Part shown: in pieces, positions 2,892-44,300 of the stretch
Layout of the letters: each line of letters begins with the position of its first letter
Position numbering within the stretch: position 1 is the stretch's first letter
Assembly: GCF_032854445.1 (NCBI RefSeq)
Contig: NC_088300.1
Location: 70,778,984 to 70,842,983 of the forward strand
DNA: 64,000 bases
Source of the DNA: Liolophura sinensis
Lineage: Eukaryota; Mollusca; Polyplacophora; Chitonida; Chitonidae
Direction of reading: 5' to 3'
Notes under the pieces: model-generated
Databases searched by the model: none
The model's input: the letters and a program-made list of their open reading frames with translations, nothing else
Told to the model about the DNA's origin: nothing
Translations under genes and position numbers: made by a program

Positions 2892-3510
2892 ACCAAAGAG
2901 CCACGTGAAAACGGTAAGAAATAGTTCCTCACATCAATGAATTGATGTCCTGTGCAATGTCTGGCTTGAAGATTAAGAAAATATCGCGCTTTGGACATTG
3001 CTTTTGGTGAACATATCACTAGATGCCACTGATTTTCATCCGTTGAAACTTTACATCACTCCAGTGAAGGAAAGACCAAACTCATATATATGCATCTACA
3101 TTATGTATTTTCATACTGTCAATGTCGTCGTACAATGCGTCTTCATCAAAAAGCCATGCTGAAGACAACAGTCACGGTGCCTAACATTCAAATTAGAATT
3201 GGCATTCGGTCATTTTCACACAATCTATACGCCTACACGAGCGTAACACGTTGACTTTCTCGGCCAGGGGGTCAGTGGGTAATTTACTGACAAATTAAAC
3301 TTATTTTAAACATCTCTTTGTAAACACAGCTTTAACAACGCCGTGATGTGATCGCGATATTGTATGATTTTCTGTGATTAAAAACGTGATTATTAAAACT
3401 GGTCATAAATTTCAATTTATTTCGGAGATATAAAGCAACCATCTGTCATTTGAATTAAGTTTATGGAGACGCCAATGTTTGTCTTGTGGTGACAGACTGA
3501 GCTGTGCTGC

Positions 3511-3603
3511 TATAAAAGGGCATGGTTTGCGGCAGAAGTTACACAGGGAACTTTAGGGAAGAATATTGACATTCTGCATCTTCATCTTAAATGATTTGCT
3601 CGA
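3511..3603 (+). promoter_or_regulatory. Candidate TATA promoter and 5' leader exon for the dermatopontin-like gene
   Basis: A strong TATA motif (TATAAAAGG) lies at 3511-3519. About 30 bp downstream, near 3541, a transcript could begin. A consensus 5' splice site (GTAAGT) starts at 3604. This fits a short leader exon spliced to the coding exon that opens near 4370. The link to that gene is inferred from order and orientation only, and the matching 3' splice site upstream of 4370 is not certain. Confidence 0.35.
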
Positions 3604-4227
3604 GTAAGTACGCATGAAATCCGAAGAACTCTATTTTCTGCTTACATTTCCTATTTCAGACGCTAGTCTTCATAATAATATTTTTTTTTCTTTCTAGTAA
3701 CCGTTTCGTTACATATACAAGGCTCTTCTGTTTAAATTGCTTCAGCCGTGACATTACAGAAAAAGTTGTCCGTTTTGGAGTTTGTGTCTTTTTTCAGCTT
3801 GAGCTGTTGATTCGTTGTTTTTCTCTTTTATTTTCATTATTGTTGCTTTGCTGGTTCGTCTTTTTGTTCATCATGTTTGATTATTGGTCTTGATCTGGAA
3901 CGTCCATAGCTAATGATGGCTGCTGTTTTAGGTTTTCATTTAGCGCTTGCTATACTGTTGTCAACATATAAGGTGTTGTTTTGTGATGTTTTGTTTGGAA
4001 AGCATTTTCATCATTATGCCTTATCCAGATTTTTGTTCCATAGTTCTGTAAGAACAGTCCAACATGATTTTGCACATGCAGGTCAACATTTGGCTACAGG
4101 ATATGATCATTAAACACTAAACAATGTCTAAGTAAACAGGATATTAGATTTAAATGCAGTCTGTAGACATAGACATCAACTATACTGCTCTTGAACATTC
4201 TAGCTTCCTCTCCTTCTGTAAACGTGG

Positions 4228-4369
4228 GAAGGTCTTCCAGCAACGTGCGGATAGTCGTGGGCGGGGGCTCCCCCTAAACTCTGCGCGGTTTCCCCCCATC
4301 ATATCATGCTGGTCGCGAAATATTACTGAGCACGGCGTAAACCTCCAACCAAAATTATAAAATAAATAA
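4228..4369 (+). mobile_element. SINE family 1, 3' part, abutting the dermatopontin start
   Basis: It matches the family-1 pattern: ggaaggtcttccagcaac, then a gtttcc-rich middle, a degenerate 'catgctggtcgcgaaatatt', 'gcacggcgtaaacc', and an AAATAAATAA tail. The tail ends directly at the ATG of the downstream open frame (AATAAATAA|ATGG), so the element would form the 5' UTR or intron end next to the coding sequence. Confidence 0.7.
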
Positions 4370-5540
4370 ATGGTTTTCATGAAAGGAATGGTGCGTGGAA
4401 TTCTCCTGCAGTTGTGCCTGGTCTCCATGGCTACATCGGCGTACGTCAACAGCTGGGATGACACCTTCCGCTTCGAATGTCCCGACGGTGAACACATTGC
4501 TAGCGTCGGCAGCACGCATTCCAACCATCACGAGGATCGCCGGTGGGAGTATCACTGTGAGAAACTCTCCCGTTCCTATACTGGGTCCTACTTCAAAAAT
4601 TGCGCGTGGTCGGGCTTCGTGAACGACTTCCACGAGATGGTGGCCTTCCGATGTCCAGAGAAAGGCGCAGTCACAGGCGTCTATAGCATTCACGACAACC
4701 GCAAAGAGGACCGACGGTTTAGCTTCAAGTGCTGTCAAGTGGTGAACTACCCGATAAAGGAATGCAAGTTTACGAACTACCTGAACGAATGGGATGGTCC
4801 AATGAACTACAGAGTCCCGGATAGGTTCCTCCTGGTCGGGTTTGCCAGCTATTACGGCAAACAGTAAGTTTTATATTCAGTTCGGGTGAAGAGGCTGCAT
4901 GGTCATCATGAATTACGCAATAAATAAAATATTGCTAAACTTGGTAGAATATAGGCGTACAGTCATCGCTCTTCTTAGCATGTATGCCATTCTAGAAACT
5001 AAACTCTACACTTAGTGCCAATCAAGTAACTTGTTGTTGTTCTTGAATGTTGAACGCAACTTAACAAAACGAAAGACATCAAATTTTGATAAGGTTTTTG
5101 ACTTAACAACACCAGGCCATGTTAACGGTCTCGATAGGCCTAATTAAAATTCTGTTTGGTGTGAAGGTCAAAACTAAGTATATAGCGAATTAACGAATTT
5201 TGTATAATCCACATTTAACAACAAAGTGTAGTAATAGCAGATTTATTGCTTAATTCAGCTTCTGTTTCATGCATTATAAAGGGAACCTATATGTGATGTG
5301 TATTTTGATTGGCCAAATCGCCCGACAGTCGCACAAGTTGTGCGAACATGCTTATAAAACCGGATTCGTGTAGCGGTAAGAACTAAGTTTATAATATTAT
5401 TATGGTGTTATTATTATTATCATCATCATTTTCTTCTTATTACCAGGAACAAGCTGTGGAAACTGCCTTTACTGAGAGGTGATAACCATGATCGAAGATG
5501 GAAAGCCGAAATCTGCAGATACAAGAAGTGCACTGTTTAA
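4370..5540 (+). CDS. Dermatopontin-like secreted matrix protein (two coding exons)
   Basis: Proposed coding segments are join(4370..4863, 5447..5540), giving 195 residues. The donor at 4864 (GTAAGT) and the acceptor ending at 5446 (taccAG) join in frame within a Gln codon. The N-terminus is a signal peptide: basic residues, then GILLQLCLVSMATSA, with cleavage likely before YVNSWDD. The mature part is the dermatopontin fold: W-D-x(4)-F-x-C-P at the start and three copies of the [E/H]DRR[W/F]-x(3)-C motif (HEDRRWEYHC, KEDRRFSFKC, HDRRWKAEIC), with nine cysteines. Dermatopontins are extracellular matrix proteins, and in molluscs some occur in the shell matrix; that role here is an inference. The first Met lies at the end of a SINE tail, so translation could instead start at Met4 or Met7, both of which keep the signal peptide. 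I did not resolve the upstream leader. Confidence 0.85.
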
Positions 5541-5654
5541 AATGATCTGACAAACCAACGGCTGCTGTGTTACAAAGAATCACCGGCATTGCGTACTCTT
5601 ATGTAGTTACGAAAACGGAATACTTTCCGACCGAAAATACAAATGCGAAAGACA

Positions 5655-5660
5655 AATAAA
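5655..5660 (+). promoter_or_regulatory. Polyadenylation signal AATAAA, dermatopontin-like gene
   Basis: A canonical AATAAA 115 bp after the stop codon at 5538-5540, on the same strand. Confidence 0.55.
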
Positions 5661-6049
5661 TAATGCAAACTAAAAACACTCCATGATTATCACTTTCTTT
5701 TCTGTCACCCTTTTTATCTATTGCTTTACGATGCCCCAATCTGGTAAATGAATTCAGACGAAAAATATGTTTCCGAGCATCTTCGGGCTTGTAATCGTAT
5801 AATAATCCAAGAATACGTAAAGGCCCGTCCCAAAACCGTGGTGAGTAATCACTGGCGAATGTCTCTAAACTCTGATTTGTTGATGAAGTTGCACATTTTA
5901 CTCCAGGTTCAATCCCCTATACCAAAATCCATTACCTACAAGTATACAACTTACACTTTTCTTCATTCTCTAACATTATGTGACGTATCTGCTCAGCCAT
6001 GTATTTTTTAAAATATATATCTCTATTGTGCAGCTAACGTTTGGCTTAG

Positions 6050-6965: not shown

Positions 6966-9900
6966 TCAGAATTTGGAGAATCCCTTCTTGGCAGCAGCAC
7001 TCTTGGTCACCTTGAGCACGTTGAAGCGCACAGTCTTGCTAAGAGGACGACATTCTCCCACGGTTACCACATCACCAATGTTGATGTCCCTGATGACAGG
7101 AAAGGACATACAATTAACTATTCTTATTATTCGGCCCTGCTCCTCCCCCCCCCTCCTTTGTACAAAAGAATTATTACCTTCTATGACTGTAGTCAGGTTT
7201 ATTGATGAGGAAACCATGATACACCAAGTAAACCAGGATGCACTGAGTAAACCAGGATATACGGAGTAAACCACTGCCCTTGGCAAGTACTGGACATGAC
7301 TAACAACTACTTCGCGTATGGGACTAAAATTTTAACAAGCAACTCTGGCTACATCAAGCCTAAATTTTTGTGTCTGCATCAGGTCTATGCTAATATTACT
7401 GGCTTCCTGGGAAGTTTATTGGTGTCCGAAAAGTAGGAACAGCTAAAGTAAGTGGGACAGTCAATAATATGTTGAAAAGTTATATCAAATTACATGATAA
7501 TAATGCTTGGTGATACCAACTTAGTTTATTACACATCATATTCTGTGATTTAGTTTGGTTTTTACGTAAGAACTCTATCTGCATGACTTTGTGAGAGATG
7601 AACTGATACTATATGCTGCATCAGGGAGATATATTAGTCATCACAATCACTCAGTAGACCATCGTGACTGATGTCATCACCTGCAGCATTAAGCACAGCA
7701 TCCAGTGCAAATGATGTGGCAATACAATACAACTAATTATAATGTCACAGGTGATAATGACACATTTACTTAAATGGCATTTTGCGACATACTTGACAAT
7801 GTTTCACTTTATACATTTTAAGGGTGGAGGAAACCTGGCAGATTGAAGGGGAAACCACAAAACCATGCCAAATAGCAAAGACCATTTATGCAAATCTTGG
7901 TTTGAAGGATATAGCCACTTATAAATCACAGTTAAAATTATGTATTTTATTTTTCTTATAGACGTATCTCCTTGAAAAGCCTTGACAGAGACATACCTAA
8001 AGCAGGGGCTACAGTGGACAGAGATGTTCCTGTGCCTCTTCTCAAATCTGTTGTACTTCTTCACGTAATGCAGGTAGTCTCTTCGGATCACAATTGTCCT
8101 CTGCATTTTCACCTTGGCCACAACCCCGGTCAGGATACGGCCCCGGATCTGCACATTGCCTGTGAACGGGCACTTCTTGTCAATGTAGGTTCCTTCAGAG
8201 GCCTGGGTAAACAGACAAGTAAATCTTGTAAAAATATCTCTATTTGCTTGATTGGTGTTGATGCATTTTAAAAAATATTTCACTTATCCATTGTAATCAG
8301 TTCCATGTGGACAGCAAACTATGCAAAGAAAATTTCCAACCTTTGGCAAGTAACTGACAAACTTTTCCACATGTGAGTCACAAATGTTTACCCGCAGAGT
8401 GAGCTTAATGACTAAGCCACATTGATGGAAGGCAAGGGATCTCAAATGAGCTTCCTGCAAGACCAGCTAAGGGCCTTATAGGCATTGCTAATTGCTTATT
8501 GCTACCAGGGCACTTGGACAGCAGTGGGTATGAGGAAATTATGGCTGGGAATGAACCAAAACCTCAAGCATTCTAAAGATTCAAAAATAAGCACTTTAAC
8601 CAGACAGCCACCATATGCTGCTACATTGACGCGTAAATCTTGTTGGCCTTGCACTATAATTTGAACTATGTGAATGACTATGGGTTGGATTCACACACAT
8701 TTTCTTGACTGAAGTTACATAAAACTGTAATTGAAAGATTAAAGTTTTAAATGTTGGTTTTACATTTTACAGTGACCCCAGAGCTACATCAGATATACGA
8801 GAGTGGTCATCAAGATTAACTCAGTAGACCATTGTGAACTATTTCACCATCTGCAGTGAGCATGGGTTGTTAATACTTAAACACATCAGCATCATGGTGG
8901 CCATCCCACCAAGCCAATTTTGACTAACAAACATTAATTTTGAATATGCAGTTTGAGTTACAGTATTAGAGGTCATATCACGCCGCATAATTATATTGCC
9001 GCTTCACATCATGGAAGAGCTACTTGCCTATCTTTTAATGACAGTATTCATCTTTATTCATTAATTGCAGTATTTAACACCCAAACCCACCCAAGAAGCT
9101 AAGTCTAATATAACAAGGTTTCATTGATTTTCTATACATCACCCCATATGTGATTTTGCCCAATTGTACCTGGGAGACCCCTTGTGTCCTCATCTTACCT
9201 CAGAAGCACCTAAATCAACCAATCACTGAAGCTGATTAAAATAATCTTACCTACAGCAACTTTCTGTCAAAATACTGCAGCAACCAATTAGAAAATTTGT
9301 TGACGCAGCCATTCTGCTCGTCAAGTTAGCATGGTCAACTGGGCAAGTCAGAACGAGAACACGTTTGGTGGGTGCTGTGGTGTTGGTGGGTGCTGTGGTG
9401 TTGGTGGTGGTGTTGATGGGTGCTGTGGTGGTGGACGCTGTGCTGTTGGTGTGTCAATCTACCCATTTATACCACACTGCACACTTTTCCACAGTTTAAC
9501 TGAAGAAATCACTAGGAGCCGGTAACTTACCTCTCGTGGAGTTTTGAATCCTAGACCTACATTGCGAACATAACGCAAGTTTTTAGCTCCCTTGCCAGAC
9601 AGCAAGACGCTTTTCTTGTTCAGGAAAACTGTAGGCTGCCTCTGGAAACACTTCTCCGTCTGAAAGAATAAAATTTCATTTTAGCTGATGTCAGAAGTTC
9701 TAATAAAGCTTAACTTTAGAGTGGACTTCTGGACAATAGATGTCAATAGACTTTGGGGAAAAAAAATCAGTTATCGTATATATACATATATATATACATG
9801 CTGAAGTACACAACAAAAACAGCCTTCCCTGCCAGACTTTCAAAGTGCATCAGAAGTGTATGAATTCATCACAGGAGTTTCTACTATGAAGACCATCGTG

Positions 9901-12382
9901 AGAACAACTCATCACTGCACTGTCATACAAAGGAATAGGCTTACTACTGCACATGCAAAAAGTCACACTGGAAATTGGACATGTGATAGGCGATGCAGTT
10001 GTTCAAATCATAGCACATACTTTTCTTCTGTAATGCTGCAGTGCTTGTGTACAGCCCAAGTTAAATGTTTCAAAAATTCCCCATTGCCTAGTACATGTAT
10101 CAAACAGGTCTGATCAGTGAAGTCATTTTTCGTGACCTCTGAATTCAAAATACCCGACAGCGAAAATCAGCTCTACCATTGATTTACCAGTCAATATTTA
10201 AATCATGTAATGATATCAAGCCCATCTAAATGGACATAACTTAGAAAATGTAATTGGGCTCCAAAAGTGTAGACACAAATGGAGTTTGCAATGCTGTACC
10301 ATATTGACAAAGAGGCAATGATGGACTTAAGTGTCTCGATGAATACCTGAATTTTGGTCTAATTAGAGGACTAGATAGCCCAGGTGTAAAAGACGGACCT
10401 TTCGCAAGTTACTGATAAACTTTCCCACATGTGGCTTACAGGTACTCATGGGCAAACCATACTGATGGAAGAGTGAGTGTTTGGGATTTAACAGCATACT
10501 TAACAATTTTTCAGTCACATGACGACGAAGGAGTCCTTAGAGTGCATGTAACATACCTCCTTGTTGCAGGATGGATTTCCACCCCTCTTTTACCTAGTGC
10601 TGCTCAACTGAGGCAAGTTACCAAAGGCAAGTTATCTGCCCCACGCGAGTCATTATACTGATATGGGTCAACCAGTCTTTGCACTATCCCCTTAATGCTG
10701 AATACCAAGCCAGGAAGTCAATACTCCCTCTTTTAAGGTATAAGGTGTAACCTGATCCAGGACTGACCCTAGATCTACCACCCCTGAAGCCGATGCCCTA
10801 CCAGCTGAGCTATCAGGGCCGGTACTACTGGTGGAAGAGAAGTGGTCTTCAATGAATCGCTTAGTAACTGAAAAGCAAGCATCTGAACACTTTGTCCAGG
10901 TACCACTCCTCAGGCTGTTTGAAACCAGCCATTTTTGTCATCAATCACATCTGCACAATATCACAATTTATAATTTCATTGGAGTTTTATGTCGTACTCA
11001 AAAATTTTTCACTTATGTGAAGGCAGTCAGCATGATGGTGGGAGAGATTCAGGTAGAGCAAGACTGTACGTTGCTGGCAGACCTTTCCACATACAACAGG
11101 AGAGAAAGCCAGTATGAGATGGCTTACAGAGATTGCCATAATGTCACAAAGCCTTAGCTGCACACTGCAATTCCTGTACAAATTACTGTATCTCCTTCTC
11201 TTTGAAAATTGTATATGACATTACATCATTATGACATCCCTTTGTCCTTCGTTTCTTGACATCCTTCGTTTCTTGACGTCCTTGCTTTACAGCATGGTGT
11301 TGACAATCACTGAATTATACCAGGTGTGGGTATATACAATAATGAAAAAATTATCCATGAAAATTATCTTTTATTACCTGACATACTTTGCAAAGCTTTA
11401 AAATAAATATTTCAGGAAATAAACATCATCTTTTGAGGATAATTATTGTTATTATATACATCGGGCTATGTCAAAATGACTTTTCCCAGCGTGTGGCAGC
11501 GTATATAGACATCATCAGGATGTTGAGACGTCAAAGCTTGAAATTCATATGACGTTGCTCTAGTAGTATTGACACGAAATTGTGGTCACATCACCTCCCA
11601 ACTTCTGACTCATCTTACAGAATGATTAAGACTGATGAAATCATCTGTTATTTCAGGATCCCTGGATGTCTCGGTCGAGGTATAATAACTCCATCGAGGT
11701 ATTAAACCTCGGAAGTCGTTTGGACCCAACCTGGTTATATTAGGTGTAGTGTCTGAAAATGTTTTTATTTTGTGAATTTGTGGGGTTGTCATGGATCGTT
11801 TTTGGTTCAGCTAAACTCAGAACAGGGTTAGTTGATTATGAGGATCACTTGGTTGACATGGATTTATGCTGGGGAAGTTTCAATGCGCGTGTGAAGATGC
11901 GGTAAGTCTTCCTTGCCATCAATTCAACACATTAGAAGCAGTTTCTCTCGGCAACCCTTGCCACACTTCGTGTTGCTCCATTTAACAGTTCACCACTCCA
12001 GAACTGTATACACTTTGATCTTGCACAAATTTGAAACTCTCATATCTTTGGCTTTGTTCAAAGCATTGCTCAATGGCTCAAATAATGTCAATGTTGAGTT
12101 AAGTCTTGTCATTCCGTCATAGTGTCCATTTTAGCTCCTGTGTCAAAACTACACATATATGCCTGCCCACTGCCAACGTTTTGTTGTTGTTGTTATAGAA
12201 TTAACATCATCATTTCACATTCACGGCAGCTCATATTTTATGCTCATATATACAGTATTTTGAATATCAAAACGAAACTCAGTGTATTAAAAGCCAGACA
12301 GAGCAATCATTTATCAATACAGTTCACTAAAATGTGTCTTTTATTGCTATTTATGGCGAGGTTTCCTAACCTGTTCCGCCAT
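6966..12382 (-). CDS. RPS11: 40S ribosomal protein S11 (uS17), complete, four coding exons
   Basis: Coding segments on the minus strand are 12371..12382, 9531..9659, 7997..8202 and 6966..7089. They total 471 nt for 156 residues plus stop, against 158 in human. All junctions use GT/AG and keep frame. Exon 1 encodes only MAEQ, exon 2 starts [16 protein letters not shown], exon 3 holds [20 protein letters not shown] and [18 protein letters not shown], and exon 4 ends [19 protein letters not shown] then KKGFSKF. This is the 40S protein that binds 18S rRNA near the body of the small subunit. A pyrimidine tract (TOP motif, CTTTTCTC) starts at 12404, 22 nt upstream of the ATG. Each of the three introns carries a C/D box snoRNA. 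The gene is head to head with NDUFV3. Confidence 0.96.
7614..7688 (-). ncRNA. C/D box snoRNA, SNORD35-like, copy in RPS11 intron 3
   Basis: Minus strand, 75 nt. The terminal stem TGCTGCA/TGCAGCA pairs perfectly. Box C is GTGATGA (7680-7674), box D is CTGA (7624-7621), and there is an internal D' (CTGA) and C' (GTGATGA). The guide just before D' reads TCACGATGGTCTA, complementary (with one G-U) to the conserved 28S rRNA stretch AGACCGTCGTGA. Human U35/SNORD35 carries almost the same guide, and one human copy also lies in an RPS11 intron. The predicted role is guiding 2'-O-methylation of 28S rRNA. Confidence 0.88.
8781..8861 (-). ncRNA. C/D box snoRNA, SNORD35-like, copy in RPS11 intron 2
   Basis: Minus strand. 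Box C is ATGGTGA (8850-8844), one base off consensus. D' CTGA follows the guide TCACAATGGTCTA, C' is TTGATGA, and box D is CTGA (8792-8789). The terminal stem is weaker: CTGCA with TGTAG, one G-U pair. The guide differs from the intron 3 copy by one base, which replaces a Watson-Crick pair with a mismatch to the rRNA. This may be a decaying paralogue. Confidence 0.7.
9360..9455 (+). repeat. GGTGCTGTGGTGTTG-type short tandem repeat in RPS11 intron 2
   Basis: Imperfect repeats of 'ggtgggtgctgtggtgttg' degrade into GGT/TGT triplets. The open frame through it is glycine- and cysteine-rich only because of the repeat. Confidence 0.8.
9845..9920 (-). ncRNA. C/D box snoRNA, SNORD35-like, copy in RPS11 intron 1
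   Basis: Minus strand, about 76 nt. The terminal stem GTGCA/TGCAC is perfect. Box C is GTGATGA (9915-9909), box D is CTGA (9853-9850), and an internal C' (GTGATGA) is present. The guide TTCTCACGATGGTCTT extends complementarity to the 28S stretch AGACCGTCGTGAGA (one G-U). Box D' is poor (CATA). It is the best rRNA match of the three copies. Confidence 0.83.
10465..10824 (-). mobile_element. SINE family 2, near complete, in RPS11 intron 1
   Basis: On the minus strand a tRNA-like head (CCCTGATAGCTCAGCTGGTA, ending near 10822) is followed by the family-2 body (aaggcaagttatctg, gatggatttccacccctc, acatgacgacgaagga). It is one of two near-complete copies in the window. Confidence 0.75.
10975..11130 (-). 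mobile_element. SINE family 1 fragment in RPS11 intron 1
   Basis: 'attggagttttatgtcgtac', 'ctcaaaaatttttcacttat', 'gtcagcatgatggtgggag' and 'gctggcagacctttccacat' are diverged minus-strand family-1 sequence. Confidence 0.65.
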
Positions 12383-26300: not shown

Positions 26301-29300
26301 TTTGTACAGCTCATCCCTGAGGCGGCCAACTTCAGTCTCTAGCTCAGCTTTCTCATAACCCTGTGGGGCAGACTTCAACTTCTCATTTTCAGCCTGCGCT
26401 TTGGTGAGCTTGGCTTGTAGATGATTTTTATTCTGTCTCAAGTCCTCAAGAAGAGACATGATGTGTGAAAGCTGGTTCTGAAGATAATTCTTTTCTGATT
26501 GTGTCTTGCTCAGATTATCCAGCTGACTTTTTAGTTGATCTTTTTCACGAACAGCAGCTTTTAATTCTTCTTGCAGCTTAGAGCACTCTGTACGACTCTC
26601 TCGAAGTAAGCCTTCGAGATGAGACTCTTCCTTTGATCTCCCCAAAATTCCTTGCTGAAGTTTTTCGAGTTCCTGTCGCAACATTGAGCTAGACTCAACA
26701 TGCATGGCCTCAACTTTACCTTGATTTGATTTGAGTTCTTCCTCTACTTTTCTTTTCTCAGCTTCTAAATCTTTGCCTTTCTCCTTCTCGATGGTTATCT
26801 GACTTTCAAGTTGTGCACACTTTTCAGAGAGTGTCTGCACTTTCTGCTGAGCAAGCTCAAAGTTTGCAACAATTCTGTTATACTGTTTGTCCTGTGCTCT
26901 TTCCTTTGCTACATGCTCTTCTAATTTTCCTTGGGTCTGTTCCAAAGATTTTCTTAATGTTTCTAATTCCATCACAGCTTTATCATATTTTCTCCTAAGC
27001 TCACTTTCAAGAGCTTCAAAACCTTTTTCCATGGATTTAATTTCCATTTTTTTATCCTCCAGCTCTTTGCTTTTAATTTCAATCTCTGAACTCATTTTTG
27101 TGATCATCATATCTTTTGAAGACAAATCTTCTGTGAGCTCTGAATATTTTTCGTACAGCATGTTGTATTCTATCCGCTTAGCATCCAGCTTGGCTTGTAT
27201 TTCTTTCAGCTGATTCTCAGCTAGTAACAATAGCGATGCCTTTTTCTCAATTTCTTCCTGAAGACCCGTTACAAAGGTGCCCTGTTCTTGAAGTGCAGAG
27301 GACTTTTCCTGCTCATACTTTTGCTGCAAGTTTTCCAGCTGGTCCTTTGTTGAAGCAAGGTTTTCGCTAATTTCTGTCTTCAACAACTCAGCAGATTGTA
27401 GCAATTGCTGAAGATCAGCCTCTTTTTGCAGAAGATCATTGTATTTTTCTAAAAGTACTTCATGTTTGCTGTTCAAATCATTTTGTTTCCTTACACTTTC
27501 TACAACCTCTTCTTCAGCCTTTGCCAGAGCAGAATTCCTCTCACATAGCTCCAGCTTGAGCTTCTCAACCTGATCAATAAGAGAATTTCTCTCTTCTTTA
27601 ACTGACTGTTCTGTTTCATATGTTGATCTTAAATCAACCAATTTCTTTGAGTTCTCTAGCAATTCTAACTCCGCCTTCTCCATTTGTTCTGCATGTCTTT
27701 TAAGAGATTCCTCATGCTCATGTTGAAGGCCTGTGAAATTTTGTGTGACATCTTGTAGTTCCTTCTCCAGTTTTTGTACAGTGTCTGCTTTTGCTGTCAG
27801 CTCAGTTTGTTGACCATTTATGGTTTCCTTCAGAGATACCAGCTGTTGTTCTTTTTCTGACACCATCTCCTTACACTCACAGAGTTCAGTTTTTGTACTG
27901 TTCAAAGCACAATCTTTCTCAATCATTTCACATTTGAGTTTATCAATTATCTCTTGATAAGTCACTTTCTCAGCCATGTAGCCTTCTCTTGAGGGGACAT
28001 CTTGAAACGTCACAAGCTCATCATAACGACTTTGCAAATCTTTTAACTTCTCATTACAATCTTCAAAATCAACTTTAGCAGTTTCTAGTGCTGCAGCCAT
28101 TTCAGAAGACTCGGATGTTAGCTTGCACTTAAGTGATGATAGGGCCTCATCATGTTGAGCTTTTAGTACTGACAACTGTTCATGGCTGACTTGTAGATCT
28201 GACTTCGCTATATCCAAAGCTTTTCTGAGCTCAGATATATTGGTAGTACCTTCCAAAGCAGACATTTCATGAATACTCTGAAGTTCATCAAACTGGGCTT
28301 GTAATGTGGACAATTTTTCATCCCTGGCTTGCAGGTCTCTTGTGGCTTTATTCAATGCTTCCCTTAGTTCAGAAGTTTCAACATCTGTTGAAGTTTCTTT
28401 GGATTCATAAAGCCTTTGAAGTTCATCATACTGTAACTGTAAGGTGGACAGTTTTTCACTGGCGACTTGTAAATTGGCCATGGCCTCTGTCTTGTCAAGT
28501 ACATTAGACGATGCATCCATTGTGGCTACCAGTGTTTGATGAAGAGTCTGAAGTTCATCATACTGAGATTGTAAAGTTGACAGTTTTTCATTGCTGGCTT
28601 GTAAATCAGCCATCGCTTTATCCAAAGCCTCTGTCATTCCAAACTCAGAAGAAGACACCTCCATTGATGTTACTACTGCTTGATGAAGGGTTTGAAGTTC
28701 ATCATACTGGGACTGCAAGGCTGTCAACTTTTCATTGCTGGCTTGAAAATCGGCTGTGGTTTTATTCAATGCCATCTTCAGCTCAGATATATCCGCGGAA
28801 TCTTCTGCTTGAGGCTCCTGACGGTTGTGATGGGGTAGCAGTTCATCATACTGGGACTGCAAGGCTGTCAACTTTTCATAGCTGGCTTGTAAATCAGCTG
28901 TGGCTTTATTCAATGCCATCTTCAGCTCGGATATATCCGAGGAATCTTCTGCTTGAGGCTCCTGACTGTTGCGATGGGATAGCAGTTCATCATACTGGGA
29001 CTGCAAGGCTGTCAACTTTTCATCGCTGGCTTGTACATCGGCTGTGGCTTTATTCAATGCCATTTTCAGCTCGGATATATCCGAGGAATCTTCTACTTGA
29101 GGCTCCTGACTGTTGCGATGGGATAGCAGTTCATCATACTGGGACTGCAAGGCTGTCAACTTTTCATTGCTGGCTTGTAAATCGGCTGTGGCTTTATTCA
29201 ATGCCATCTTTAGCTCAGATATATCCGAAGAATCTTCTACTTGAGGCTCCTGACTGTTGCGATGGGATAGCAGTTCATCATACTGGGACTGCAAGGCTGT

Positions 29301-32300
29301 CAACTTTTCATTGCTGGCTTGTAAATCGGCTGTGGCTTTATTCAATGCCATCTTTAGCTCAGATATATCCGCGGAATCTTCTGCTTGAGGCTCCCGACTG
29401 TTGTGATGGGATAGCAGTTCATCATACTGGGCCTGCAAGGCTGTCAACTTTTCATTGCTGGCTTGTAAATCGGCTGTGGTTTTATTCAATGCCATCTTCA
29501 GCTCGGATATATCCAAGGAATCTTCTGCTTGAGGCTCCTGACTGTTGCGATGGGATAGCAGTTCATCATACTGGGACTGCAAGGCTGTCAACTTTTCATT
29601 GCTGGCTTGTAAATCGGCTGTGGCTTTATTCAATGCCATCTTTAGCTCAGATATATCTGAGGAATCTTCTACTTGAGGCTCCTGACTGTTGTGATGGGAT
29701 AGCAGTTCATCATACTGGGCCTGCAAGGCTGTCAACTTTTCATTGCTGGCTTGTAAATCGGCTGTGGCTTTATTCAATGCCATCTTTAGCTCAGATATAT
29801 CCACGGAATCTTCTGCTTGAAGCTCCTGACTGTTGTGATGGGATAGCAGTTCATCATACTGGGCCTGCAAGGCTGTCAACTTTTCATTGCTGGCTTGTAA
29901 ATCGGCTGTGGCTTTATTCAATGCCATCTTTAGCTCAGATATATCCGCGGAATCTTCTACTTGAGGCTCCTGACTGTTGTGATGGGATAGCAGTTCATCA
30001 TACTGGGACTGCAAGGCTGTCAACTTTTCATTGCTGGCTTGTAAATCGGCTGTGGCTTTATTCAATGCCATCTTTAGCTCAGATATATCTGAGGAATCTT
30101 CTACTTGAGGCTCCTGACTGTTGTGATGGGATAGCAGTTCATCATACTGGGACTGCAAGGCTGTCAACTTTTCATTGCTGGCTTGTAAATCGGCTGTGGT
30201 TTTATTCAATGCCATCTTTACCTCAGATATATCCGAGGAATCTTCTACTTGAGACTCCTGACTGTTGTGATGGGATAGCAGTTCATCATACTGGGCCTGC
30301 AAGGCTGTCAACTTTTCATTGCTGGCTTGTAAATCGGCTGTGGTTTTATTCAATGCCATCTTCAGCTTGGACATATCCGAGGAATCTTCTGCTTGAGGCT
30401 CCTGACTGTTGTGATGGGATAGCAGTTCATCATACTGGGACTGCAAGGCTGTCAACTTTTCATTGCTGGCTTGTAAATCGGCTGTGGTTTTATTCAATGC
30501 CATCTTCAGCTCGGATATATCCGAGGAATCTTCTGCTTGAGGCTCCCGACTGTTGTGATGGGATAGCAGTTCATCATACTGGGACTGCAAGGCTGTCAAC
30601 TTTTCATTGCTGGCTTGTAAATCGGCTGTGGTTTTATTCAATGCCATCTTTAGCTCAGATATATCCGAGGAATCTTCTGCTTGAGGCTCCTGACTGTTGT
30701 GATGGGATAGCAGTTCATCATACTGGGACTGCAAGGCTGTCGACTTTTCATTGCTGGCTTGTAAATCGGCTGTGGTTTTATTCAATGCCATCTTCAGCTC
30801 GGATATATCCAAGGAATCTTCTGCTTGAGGCTCCTGACTGTTGTGATGGGATAGCAGTTCATCATACTGGGCCTGCAAGGCTGTCAACTTTTCATTGCTG
30901 GCTTGTAAATCGGCTGTGGTTTTATTCAATGCCATCTTCAGCTCAGATATATCCGAGGAATCTTCTGCTTGAGGCTCCTGACTGTTGTGATGGGATAGCA
31001 GTTCATCATACTGGGACTGCAAGGCTGTCAACTTTTCACTGCTGGCTTGTAAATCGGCTGTGGCTTTATTCAATGCCATCTTCAGCTCGGATATATCCGA
31101 GGAATCTTCTGCTTGGGGCTTCTGACTGTTGTGATGGGATAGCAGTTCATCATACTGGGACTGCAAGGCTGTCAACTTTTCATTGCTGGCTTGTAAATCG
31201 GCTGTGGTTTTATTCAATGCCATCTTTAGCTCGGATATATCCGAGGAATCTTCCACCTGAGGCTCCTGACTGTTGTGATGGGATAGCAGTTCATCATACT
31301 GGGCCTGCAAGGCTGTCAACTTCTCATTGCTGGCTTGTAAATCGGCTGTGGTTTTATTCAATGCCATCTTTAGCTCAGATATATCCGAAGAATCTTCTAC
31401 TTGAGGCTCCTGACTGTTGTGATGGGATAGCAGTTCATCATACTGGGACTGCAAGGCTGTCAACTTTTCATTGCTGGCTTGTAAATCAGCTGTGACATTG
31501 TTCAAAGCCACTGTCAAGTCAGGTGCACTACCTACCACTGTCTGACAACTCGTATGATTGGCTTGCAGATCTGCTGTAGCTTTATCAAGTGCTTTAGTGG
31601 TCTTAGCCTCATGCTGTTCTTCGGTGACCTGAATATCTGACAGATTTGGCTCTTTTGAGTGCAAAGCATCTGTTAAGGACACATGCTGTTTTGTTTGTGA
31701 TGTCTCACAGAGATGCACAGTACCACACTTCGCCTGAAGATGCTCATTTTCAGTCTTCAAAGCTGCCACTGTGCTTTGGCTTTCTTGCAACAGGCAATTT
31801 GCTTTCTCCAGTGCATCAACAGCTTCAGCCAGTTCTATTTGCTTCATATGGATGACTTTTCTAAGAGTAGTTATCTCCACATCAAGGGATGTGTCAGAGT
31901 TTTCACAAGTTTCTCCTTTGCAAACATATTCTGTTACAAATTCTCTCTCTGTTTGTTCAATTCCAGACTTTGCAGTCAGTTCTAAAGAGGATTGGTTATC
32001 ATCCATATGTTCATTTCCCTCATCCAAGACAAAATTTTGGTAATGCACCTTTATTTTTTTTTCACTGGTCAAAAGATGACCATGCTGGGCCATAAGATCA
32101 TCATATTTTGCTTGGAGAGTGGCTAACTTTGCATACACCTCTGCAAGCTCTGACTGAGATTGGCTCAACTCTTCCTCTGCATAAGCCACTACCTCTTGTC
32201 CACTATCTGTGACAGAAATATCTTCATGAGATTTCTGCAAACTTCCCTGTGGTTCAGGTGAACCTTGTTGATTACCTTCACTAACAAGCACTGTCTCTGT

Positions 32301-35300: not shown

Positions 35301-38300
35301 AGTTTCATCAGCAAACCTTTTGTTGAAGTATCCTCTTCGATTCCCGGAATTCAGTTTATGGGAGTAATTATGGGAAGTCAAATGAAAACTTTCCAATACA
35401 AGTACACTGACAGAAATACACAATAAAATACATTTTTGATGACACGAGGAGTGAGGAGTGTAGATGGACATAGAAACCTTAATATAATCTTTATAAACAA
35501 GGGTTACAAAGAATGCTCTCTATAGTGGACTTCGTTACAAATTTTATCATCACCAGTTTCAAAACCTACAAACACTGTTATCAGCAACTGACTACATATT
35601 GCTATATGTATTTTCTAGTGGGAAGTTTCCTTCCCACTGATCTCACCTATAGGGATGTTAGTTACTTCAAACCAAAACCTTCATAAACTGTGTCTCTGAG
35701 CTAAGCAAAATTGCTTGACCTGATGTTAGTAAAAACATTTAAATTACTAAAACCTTAACTCAAGACATCACCCATGGTTATCACTTAGTCAGGGGCTTCA
35801 TTAAGTGGTAACGAGCTACTTGTAGCTTGCTACAGTACTTCTGTAGAAAATACAGCAGCTGGCTTCCTCATTTAATTCTCAGTCAAGTAGCTGGCTACTT
35901 TTCTGAATGTAAAACAATTACAATTGAGTTGCCCTACTGTAACAGAAATTTTCTCTGTATACAAATAATAAATTGTCATGTCCCACTTCTACTTACACGG
36001 ACACCTCCAAATTGCTGTCATGTCCCACTGCTACATACATAGACACATCCACATTGCCCTAATGTCCCACTGTTACTTACATGGGCACACCCAGAATGCC
36101 GTCATGTCCCACTGCTGCATACAGACACATCCACATTCCCCTCATGTCCCACTGTTACTTACACGGGCACGCCCAAATTGCCGTCACGTCCCACTGCTAC
36201 TTACATAAACACATCCGCATTGCCCTCATGTCCCAGTGGTACTTACACGGACACACTCAGATTGTCTTCATATCCCACTGTTACTTACACAGATACACCC
36301 AGACTGCCGTCATGTCCCACTGTTACTTACACAGTCACACCCAGATTGCCGTCATGTTCCACTGCTACTTACACGGACACACTCAGATTGCCGTCATATC
36401 CCACTGTTACTTACACAGATACACCCAGACTGCCGTCATGTCCCACGGTTAGTTACACGGACACACCCAGATTGATGTCATGTCCCACTGCTACTTACAC
36501 GGACACACCCATATTGCCGTCATGTCCGACTGCTACTTACACAGACACACCCAGATTGCTGTCATGTCCCACTGTCACTTACACAGACACACCCAGATTG
36601 CCGTCATGTCCGACTGCTATTAACACAGACACACCCAGATTGCCGTCATGTCCCACTGCTATTAACACGGACACATCCAGATTGCCGTCAAGTCCCAATG
36701 ATACTTACACAGACACATCCAGGTTGCCGACCTTCTCCTGAAGCTCAGCCAGCTGGTGTAGCAGAGGGTCATTCTTCTTGATGAGCCCACCACCAGAGCT
36801 TTTCATCTGCTCAAGCTGTCGGATTTCTTCATATGCTGTCTGGAGTTCTACACGCAGGTTTTTCTGTAATTTCTCACTTTTTTCTTTCTCATGTTCCATC
36901 AAATAATCAAAATCAGCTTTTTCTTTACTTAATTGATCAAGCTGTTTCTTGGTTTCAGCCTGTGACAAAATAGAAAAATTTATAAAGCTAATATCATTAT
37001 ATTTATTTACACACTACACAGGTCTTTTAAGTCGCCAGGAACATTGTTATTGATGTTTTCTTTAATTTATTTATTTATTTGATTGGTGTTTTACGCCGTA
37101 CTCAAGAATATTTCACTTATACGACGGCGGCCGGCATTATGGTGGGAGGGAACCGGGCAGAGCCTGAGGGAAACCCACGACCATACGCAGATTGCTGGCA
37201 GACCTTCCCACTTATGGCCAGAAGCCAGTATGAGAGTAGTGAGAGTCGTTGTTCATTGACATTTAGATATAGAAATTTATGTGCATCTTCAGTACAAGCC
37301 TAGTTAATTCTGATGTGCATGATGAATATTTTACACATATCTAAGACGGTGTTATCATGTATTTACAGCCTGAACAGCCATCATGTGAATTAGTCTGTGA
37401 AGCAAACGGCAAAATAAAGAAAAGAGAATATTATGTCCAAGAATGACGGCAGAGTTTTTATCGGACATTCACTAACTTACAGGCTTCAAGATTTAATTTG
37501 TTTGTTTCATAACTGACTGATCAATGACCACACAAATCAGCCAATGCTTCGTTTGTGTTGTTCTCAGGTAATATAAGTGATAATTTTGCCCAGGTATGGA
37601 GTATCGTGATACTATTATATAGCGGCGGTGTACCACGGTACAGACCATATAGTCATATTTAAGGCAATACTCAAGTCTGACCTTCTCAAAATAGAGTATT
37701 GAAAGAATTCAGATGAAAAAGACAAAAGATGCATTGTGATTTGACATTTCGTTCATTTTAAACAATTTTCAAGGAATCTAAGCTCCCTACATTTTCCAGG
37801 TTGAACCCCTAAAATTGGCTTGGAGGGCTCAATCATTAAGTGTGACTCAAAGGATTGTTCAGATAATATGGGATCCATATGATAAGCAAATTTCACTTGG
37901 CCCTTACCAGCTGTTTCTCTAAATCCTTCACATGATCTCTTGATATGGCTAGTTCTTTTCTAGTTTCCATGACAACAGTTTCAGCATCTGTAGCATTTTT
38001 CTGCTGGATCAAAATTTCCTCTTCCAGTTTTTGGCAATTTTTGGAATCAGGAGATAATTTCTGTTTATATAAAAAAGCATGAGATAACAAATCAGTTTGA
38101 AAACTCATTCAACCACTATTGTTGATTGAGTGATTTACCATACAGAAAAATAAGAGCCCCCAGGCTTTGGTACATGTATGTAGAGTAAATATATTAGAAT
38201 TGTTCACTGAAACAATAGCACTGAACCACCAAATTACATATGTATCTCTTTGGTTACTTTGTTTCATGTGGTAATGAAAAAAATCAACAAACTATCCAAT

Positions 38301-41300: not shown

Positions 41301-44300
41301 GTACTTGAAAATGAAGCTGTATTTTTCAAGCACTTTCAAGGACTGTGCGCACCCTGCCCTAGAGTGCATGTAGGTGTAATGTACCTCCTTGTTGCAAGAC
41401 GGATTTCCATCACTCTTTTATCTAGCGCTGCTTCACTGAGGCGACTTACCAAAGGCAAGTAAGTCATCCCACCCTATTACAAGCTATTACACTGTGATAC
41501 AGATCAACCAGTCGTTGCACAATCCCCTTAATGCTGCATGCCAAGCAAGGAAGCCACAACTTCCTTTTTTAAGGTCTTAGGTGTGATCGCACCCAGGATT
41601 GACTCTGGACCTACCAACCCCGAAGTGGGCGCTCTACCAGCTGAGCCATCGGGGCCGGTTTTACGTGTTGAGGAAACTGTGCCTTTGCTAAACCACTAAC
41701 CCCTGGCAAGCTCAGCAAATCAACAGACAAACAAAGTGATTTCTACAAAGACTGGATTATCACACACCAAATCATTTCTACCACCATCTACAAGACAATC
41801 ACCTCAAATTCTTGCTCCGAATGGTCACTTGGTCTGTAAAATACACAAACAAAAATAATCATACATGTGCATAAAATGAGATTTCAAACATTCATATATG
41901 CACAATATCATTATGCTTTCATTAATATTTCACTGAGATGGGTAAATGTATCTTAATACTATTAATCACTGAAAACTGTAGTATGTGAGGCTTGTTGTGT
42001 GATATAGGCAATCACCCAGGAAGCTCAATTATGCAGGAAGCTTTGTGTGATGGGACAATCATGCAAGAAGCTTGTGTTTATGGGAGAAATCATGCGGGAA
42101 GCCTGAAGTATGGTGGGGGTAATCATTTAGGGAACTGGTTGTGTGATGGCAAATCATCCAGGAAGCTTGTTGTGTTTATGGGAGCGATCATTCAGGAAGC
42201 TGGTTGTGAGATGGGAGCAATCATCCAGGGAGCTGGTTGTGTGATGGGAGCAATCATCCAGAGAGCTGGTTGTGTGATGGGAGCAATCATCCAGGGGGCT
42301 GGTTGTGTGATTGGAGTAATCATCCAGGAAGCTTGTTTTGTTTATGGGAGAAATCATGCAAGAAGCCTGTTGTGTGATGTGAGCAATCATCCAGGGAGCT
42401 GGTTGTGTGATTGGAGTAATCATCCAGGAAGCTTGTTTTGTTTATGGGGACAATTATGCAAGAAGCATGTTGTGTTTATGGGAGCAATCATCCAGAGAGC
42501 TGGTTGTGTGATGAAAATCATCTAGGAAGCTTTCTGTGTTTATGGGAGCAATCATGCAGGAAACTGGCTGTGTGATGGAAGCAATCACCCAGGAAGCTAG
42601 TCAGAGTTGGCTTTTCGAGTAATTAGTGCCTAGAATCCTATTAAAACTTACAGGTTTAAGAGAAAGGGATCTGTCTGACAGCACACTTCAGCTGTCACCG
42701 TCACTGGTACAGGAAAAGAACTGGTAATAAACTCCTCTTTCTCACTCTCTTCAGGAATAGAAAGCAAGTTGTGAGTCTTTTCGCTGTTTTCTGCCCACTC
42801 TGCCAGGAAATCAACACTACTGGTATTGCCAAAATTTGGTCGGCTCCAGTTCAGTTTATCTAAATGGTAAAGAAAGCAAAGTCATTATACTTTGAAAATG
42901 TATGTGCCATTACACACAAGCATTAAAGATGAAGTGTTTAAACTACTCTCTAAATACCAGTTACACCCTGGATATATAATTCTGGTATAAATGATATATT
43001 TATCTTATTCTAGATTTACACTTTACTCCACATTTTCCCACTCAAGGATGAGTTAACCCCTAAACAAGAGAAAATCCTTCATCTTGATTCAACATTTATT
43101 TTCGCCATCCACGTATGCTGATCTGATCAGTGAAACTAGAGGTTTCTTATCTCACTCCAGTCTAAACCCCAGCAAACAGCTCATAAGTGCTTGTAGATCA
43201 GAATTTTTAGAATTTATTAAAATGCTTTATTTTGTTGATCTTTTTGTAATGACAGATGTTCAGCCATAATTCAGTTCAAGTTCCTAAGTTTTAACTATTT
43301 TGTACCAGAAAGAATTTTGATTTCAGTTGAAAGGCCATGGATACATACCAAAGCTGTTGTCAGTTCCTCGCTGTGACACCAAAGGGGGTAGTCTGAACCC
43401 TACTGAGGGACCTGGACACCAAGTCTCACGGCGCATTTTTTTCTGCCAATAAAAAACATTTGCATATATACATGGTGATTGGTGAATTTCTAAAGCTGTT
43501 CCACAAGTTGTTATATTATTTAGCCGTCTAGATTCCAAGGTCTTTTGGCACTGGTTTTGGTGGAAAAACAGCTTAATCTTAGATTTACACACCAACTATA
43601 CATTCTACAAAGCAGTCACAAATTGCACCTGGCGTAATTTCTGTGACAACATACAGTGAAGAGATACGTCAGCATGGTAAATGTGCTTGAGGCAGCATTG
43701 TGACAGCTTAGTAGAATAGGCCCCAGACGATGGATGTAACTTATCAACTTATCAAGACTAATCAAGCAGTTTACTTACAGTAGGCACTGGGCAGTCTTCT
43801 GGGCTGGGTAAAGTGGACACACAGAACAGCTTCTTGAGCTTATCAAGCTGTTCACGATGCTGTTTTTCCTTCTCTTCAAGTTGCAGGCGGAGCTCACTGT
43901 CCACAGAAGACTGGGTTGGTGCTTCTTGCTGGAGGAAAGTCAGGGAATCAATGAGCATGGTTTTAAGAGGTCATACAGTATTGTACATAGTTTGCACCAT
44001 ATTCAAGAATATTTCACTTATGTGATGGTGGCCAGCATTATAGTGGGAAAAAACCATGCAGAACTTTGGGAAACCCACGACCATCGCAGACGAAGCCAGC
44101 ATGACTTGACTTGAACTCATAGCGACCATATTGGTAAGAGGCTTTTCGGTGACAGCGCTGTGCAAGCGTACTAACCACAAGACCACTGAAGCCCAGCATA
44201 AAAATGTAACAACATGTACAAATTTTTACTGGAAACATTAAAAAATTACAAAATATGTATCATGCACATCAAAATATCTCAGAAAAATGAAAACTTCTCT

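Follow-up and report, generated by a model that had tools for sequence, protein, structure and literature searches.

The vertebrate U35 RNAs (SNORD35A and SNORD35B, RF00211) are encoded within introns, with RPS11 as a host, and carry the guide UCACGAUGGUCU for a site in 28S rRNA, Cm4506 in human (PMC6466398). Human RPS11 hosts SNORD35B and human RPL13A hosts SNORD35A (PMC6466398; the host is abbreviated in its table), in agreement with a preliminary description of the locus studied here, which had named one SNORD35 copy for each of these hosts, and the chicken has a single U35, located in intron 4 of RPS11 (PMC2653536). U35, plant U35 (AtU35; snoZ161_228, RF00328), and yeast snR73 (RF01207), which belong to clan CL00056, have the guide in common and are given as guides of the same LSU site (PMC3511168). 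The hosts of snoRNAs are not stable over eukaryotes as a whole (PMC3511168). SNORD100 in RPS12, a different snoRNA in a different host, is a precedent for host retention over animal evolution, from sponges to vertebrates (PMC3412847). No report of an invertebrate U35 host was found in the literature searched, the main Drosophila survey being outside its scope.

Duplication within the same host (cis-duplication) is the main route by which C/D families have grown in chicken (PMC2653536) and human (PMC8178906), and it has also been seen in ribosomal-protein genes of sponges (PMC3412847). We analyzed a stretch of 64,000 nucleotides from the chiton Liolophura sinensis, hereafter the window, which contains RPS11 with the same guide as vertebrate U35 in its introns. 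The chiton locus does not differ in kind from the cis-duplicated families, in which several copies of one C/D RNA likewise occupy neighbouring ribosomal-protein introns (PMC2653536, PMC8178906, PMC3412847); in the chiton, no intron of the host is without a copy, and one further relative is found in a different gene. Whereas vertebrates have one SNORD35 in RPS11 (human has one more in RPL13A), the chiton has three in RPS11 and one in RPN1, and its copies have a shorter central region, with CTGA as D' box in introns 2 and 3. The host arrangement differs from that of plant U35 and yeast snR73, and the intron 1 copy, which scores best with RF00328, is under the cut-off of that family.

Box C/D RNAs in the RPS11 introns

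The genome of this species was published under the name Liolophura japonica (PMC11068029), and the species was renamed L. sinensis by the authors of that genome (PMC12441733). Our genome-wide scans covered the 609-Mb assembly of 632 contigs. The RPS11 exons matched Pfam Ribosomal_S17 and Ribosomal_S17_N, and splicing of the four exons yielded a complete translation of 157 residues including the stop, ending KKGFSKF (Table 1).

Table 1. Positions in the window of the RPS11 gene, its intronic RNAs, and their elements.
Feature	Position	Strand	Details
RPS11 (uS17) host gene	6966..12382	minus	Pfam matches; complete spliced ATG-to-stop translation
RPS11 coding exons	12382-12371, 9659-9531, 8202-7997, 7089-6966	minus	
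RPS11 introns 1, 2, 3	12370-9660, 9530-8203, 7996-7090	minus	GT..AG in 3/3
SNORD35-like C/D RNA, intron 1	9844..9921	minus	terminal stem AGTGCA/TGCACT
Elements of intron 1 RNA	C box 9915-9909; guide 9903-9890; D' 9888-9885; D box 9853-9850		C box GTGATGA; guide TCTCACGATGGTCT; D' CATA; D box CTGA
SNORD35-like C/D RNA, intron 2, probably degenerate	8784..8856	minus	terminal stem CTGCA/TGTAG
Elements of intron 2 RNA	C box 8850-8844; guide 8837-8825; D' 8824-8821; D box 8792-8789		C box ATGGTGA; guide TCACAATGGTCTA; D' CTGA; D box CTGA
SNORD35-like C/D RNA, intron 3	7613..7689	minus	8-bp terminal stem ATGCTGCA/TGCAGCAT
Elements of intron 3 RNA	C box 7680-7674; guide 7667-7655; D' 7654-7651; D box 7624-7621		C box GTGATGA; guide TCACGATGGTCTA; D' CTGA; D box CTGA

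Repeat-like stretches recur in the introns of RPS11 (window ~10820-10440 and 8420-8340) and of RPL13A (3780-3920 and 5580-5740 of locus L022). These stretches, one of which has a tRNA-like start (ggccctgatagctcagctggtagggcatcgg), resemble tRNA-derived SINEs; apart from the match between introns 1 and 2, this was judged by eye only. Tandem arrays were observed elsewhere in the window at 28552-31510 (144-bp unit, 20.5 copies, 93% matches; the unit is divisible by three and possibly coding), 35975-36729 (42-bp unit, 18 copies), and 42026-42598 (33/100-bp units).

Each of the three introns was found to contain one U35/SNORD35-type box C/D RNA whose guide reads TCAC[G/A]ATGGTCT. The preliminary description had placed a C/D RNA with a common guide and a terminal stem in every intron of this minus-strand gene, and this was borne out in 3/3 introns, with 3-4 exact pattern matches genome-wide against 0 in the control. 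A RUGAUGA C box and a CUGA D box joined by a terminal stem, which define box C/D RNAs, are present in introns 1 and 3 and in the RPN1 copy. In the intron 2 RNA, the C', D', and D boxes are retained, as is the terminal stem, but the C box, AUGGUGA, departs from RUGAUGA. The D' box of the RPN1 copy is CATA, as in intron 1. Five pairs of the terminal stem form in all four copies, and two of the five show compensatory changes, which with four sequences have little statistical power and serve as supporting evidence only; the pairing vanished when the partner was slid by one base. The distance to the 3' splice site is ~570 nt for the intron 2 copy and ~525 nt for the intron 3 copy, unlike mammalian intronic snoRNAs, in which this spacing is typically short.

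We aligned the guides to the partial 28S copy of the assembly, which carries the target stretch GGGTTTAGACCGTCGTGAGACAGG. This copy (3505-4477 of locus L014, G000:C3:9144400-9149600) lies beside a TTGGGGTTAAGATTGGGATTGGGG-type repeat and is apparently a dispersed rDNA fragment. With G.U pairs allowed, the contiguous duplex comprised 14 pairs for intron 1, 13 for intron 3, and 12 for RPN1, and the intron 2 duplex covered 13 positions with one internal A.C mismatch. These alignments agree with the earlier statements that intron 1 has the longest 28S match and that intron 2 combines a mutated C box with a guide mismatch. Antisense elements are defined by at least 10 nt of complementarity directly upstream of D or D'; here it extends over 12-14 nt upstream of D'. 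The D' register is identical in 4/4 copies, with the first C of the 28S sequence AGACCG as the fifth paired position. The duplex energies of the intron 1, intron 3, and RPN1 guides were better than those of 1000/1000 shuffled guides, and for intron 2, 1/1000 shuffles was equally good. A search against the partial 28S for a second guide common to the copies, upstream of the D box, found none: this region is not shared among them and formed at most nine pairs, including G.U, at no shared place.

Family assignment and a fourth copy in RPN1

With the Rfam SNORD35 model (RF00211, gathering score 36), the intron 3 copy, the best of the three in the window, scored 32.7 bits (E 1e-4 in 4.2 kb), the intron 1 copy 21.3 bits, and the intron 2 copy 18 bits. 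The best match of the intron 1 copy was snoZ161_228 at 28.2 bits, below the cut-off and in the clan shared with SNORD35. The intron 3 and intron 2 matches agree with the earlier identification of these RNAs; the gathering score was reached by 0/3 window copies, and because of this we call them SNORD35-like.

The genome-wide Rfam search revealed a fourth copy, beyond the single-window view of the preliminary description, at C7:54771121-54771206, which scored 37.4 bits for SNORD35 and is the sole copy above the gathering score. The flanking exons match Pfam Ribophorin_I, indicating that this copy lies in sense orientation in an intron of RPN1 (ribophorin I), on a contig other than that of RPS11. 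On the basis of the common guide and boxes and of the informative columns, we regard the window copies as homologous with the RPN1 copy. The other genome-wide Rfam matches (L003-L007, L009) were rejected as family members, being without the guide.

The pattern RTGATGA-N(1-14)-CACRATGGTCT-N(25-50)-CTGA had 3 exact matches in the assembly (reversed control 0); combining the guide with the C' and D boxes gave four matches assembly-wide (control 0), and a third pattern added none. The number of exactly four copies is thus a genome-wide count of exact patterns, which degenerate copies without an intact guide could escape. A covariance model of our own making, applied to the loci examined, gave four strong matches followed by noise. 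Scanning of the three RPS11 introns for a C box, a D box, and a stem of at least 5 pairs detected the copies in introns 1 and 3 and nothing else, with 0.013 matches per set on average in shuffled introns. C/D-like motif sets at window 63202-63144 and 28024-27969 match no known family or guide and were rejected; the former, on the minus strand (GTGATGA ... CTGA, 5-bp stem GCATCAGAATCA/..TGCATAC), is probably due to chance.

In the four-copy alignment, 8/8 columns that divide the copies two against two placed RPN1 beside intron 1, the copies of introns 2 and 3 forming the other pair. Identity outside the invariant columns was 51% and 49% within the pairs and 22-39% between them, a grouping drawn from four short sequences and not a dated tree. 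Because the intron 1 copy is closer to the RPN1 copy than to its two neighbours in RPS11, the family is better taken as two pairs than as a single three-copy series in one host.

Function and origin of the copies

Very likely, these RNAs are ancient intron-encoded guides of the U35/SNORD35 kind, present as four copies in two sister pairs. To judge by their sequences, three of them (those of intron 1, intron 3, and RPN1) are probably functional and redundant with one another. From the observed sequence, boxes, stems, pairing, copy number, and grouping, we infer their processing, methylation, and history as follows. The RNAs would be released by splicing, within the RPS11 introns, and cut back as far as the terminal stem, and would bind the box C/D proteins fibrillarin, NOP56, NOP58, and 15.5K; the guide upstream of D' would then pair with the conserved 28S stretch UUUAGACCGUCGUGAGA, and fibrillarin would 2'-O-methylate the first C of AGACCG, the human Cm4506, in the chiton as well.

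The altered C-box base of intron 2 belongs to the kink-turn core, and decay of this copy is expected because the change removes that base; we consider such decay likely. We consider it unlikely that the intron 2 copy functions along with the other three, with all four retained for reasons of dosage or because the region before the D box directs them to second targets. The retained C', D', D, and terminal stem of intron 2 and a 28S duplex near the top of the shuffles would suit a working RNA, but its C box deviates from RUGAUGA at a kink-turn base and its guide carries the A.C mismatch, and second targets are opposed by the differences among the copies before the D box and by the short, scattered pairing of this region with the partial 28S. 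That only the RPN1 copy is a working SNORD35, the window copies being chance resemblances or dead relics, would suit its lone passage of the gathering score; this is highly improbable, as the numbers of pattern matches in the genome and in the controls rule out chance, and the intact boxes, guide, and compensated stems of introns 1 and 3 argue against relics.

Similarity between the copies ends at the snoRNA borders, and no flanking homology between introns was found around the snoRNAs. Introns 1 and 2 also match each other over 37 nt; this match was rejected as flanking homology, since it is far from the snoRNAs and forms a separate repeat-like stretch. The preliminary description had proposed retroposition or intron-to-intron duplication within one host. 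Had the mature snoRNA been retroposed, both the border-limited similarity and the presence of one copy on a different contig, in a host unrelated to RPS11, would be explained, but flanks of great age would have diverged under any mechanism, so that the former does not discriminate. The hallmarks of retroposed snoRNAs (snoRTs), a target-site duplication and an A-rich tail, were found at none of the copies, the longest shared flank words being 4-5 nt, as in shuffles. Moreover, C/D families in human and chicken grew mostly by same-host recombination (PMC8178906; PMC2653536), and we consider retroposition doubtful. Duplication within the host suits the intron 2/intron 3 pair, whereas a single series in one host does not agree with the position of intron 1 next to RPN1. 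As far as the sequences indicate, the two pairs fit one intron-to-intron duplication inside RPS11, which would have given rise to introns 2 and 3, and one move between the hosts RPS11 and RPN1, in either direction, which would account for the intron 1/RPN1 pair.

U35 hosts in chiton and vertebrates

The view that RPS11 has long been kept as host is supported by U35/SNORD35 in this gene in chicken (PMC2653536) and human (PMC6466398). The chiton RPL13A gene (L022, G000:C1:52374500-52384499) has C/D RNAs at 400-479, 3507-3582, and 8948-9027 of that locus. Two RNAs of this gene exceed the gathering score for the SNORD32/33 family (60.4 and 59.8 bits), and one is SNORD34-like, at 31.8 bits and below gathering; the RPL13A snoRNA set is partly common to chiton and human. 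No SNORD35 guide was found in 14 kb around the gene. RPS11 is probably the older, ancestral host of U35, since chiton RPL13A is without SNORD35 and chicken U35 occurs in RPS11 only. The last human RPS11 intron, we take it, lies before the codons for DVQIGD, and chiton intron 3 lies before those for DINIGD. If this human position holds, the copy of intron 3 could correspond by position to the U35 of vertebrate RPS11, which in chicken occupies intron 4, the last intron or nearly so. This orthologue would then have been kept in one intron since the mollusc-vertebrate ancestor and would be the source of the sister RPS11 copies and the RPN1 copy, a possibility that we rate slightly below an even chance.

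The chiton family represents a known kind of snoRNA expansion, with no new mechanism, and is of note mainly since RPS11 is a host of this guide in birds and humans as well. It provides a well-defined case for asking how faithful intronic snoRNAs are to their host genes: the pairings of RPS11 with U35 and of RPL13A with SNORD33/34-like RNAs are kept in the chiton as in human. Having one sister pair within a host and one across hosts, this small family allows a comparison of the two ways in which snoRNAs duplicate. If the positional orthology of the intron 3 copy is true, it would be a bilaterian-wide case against freely drifting host choice.
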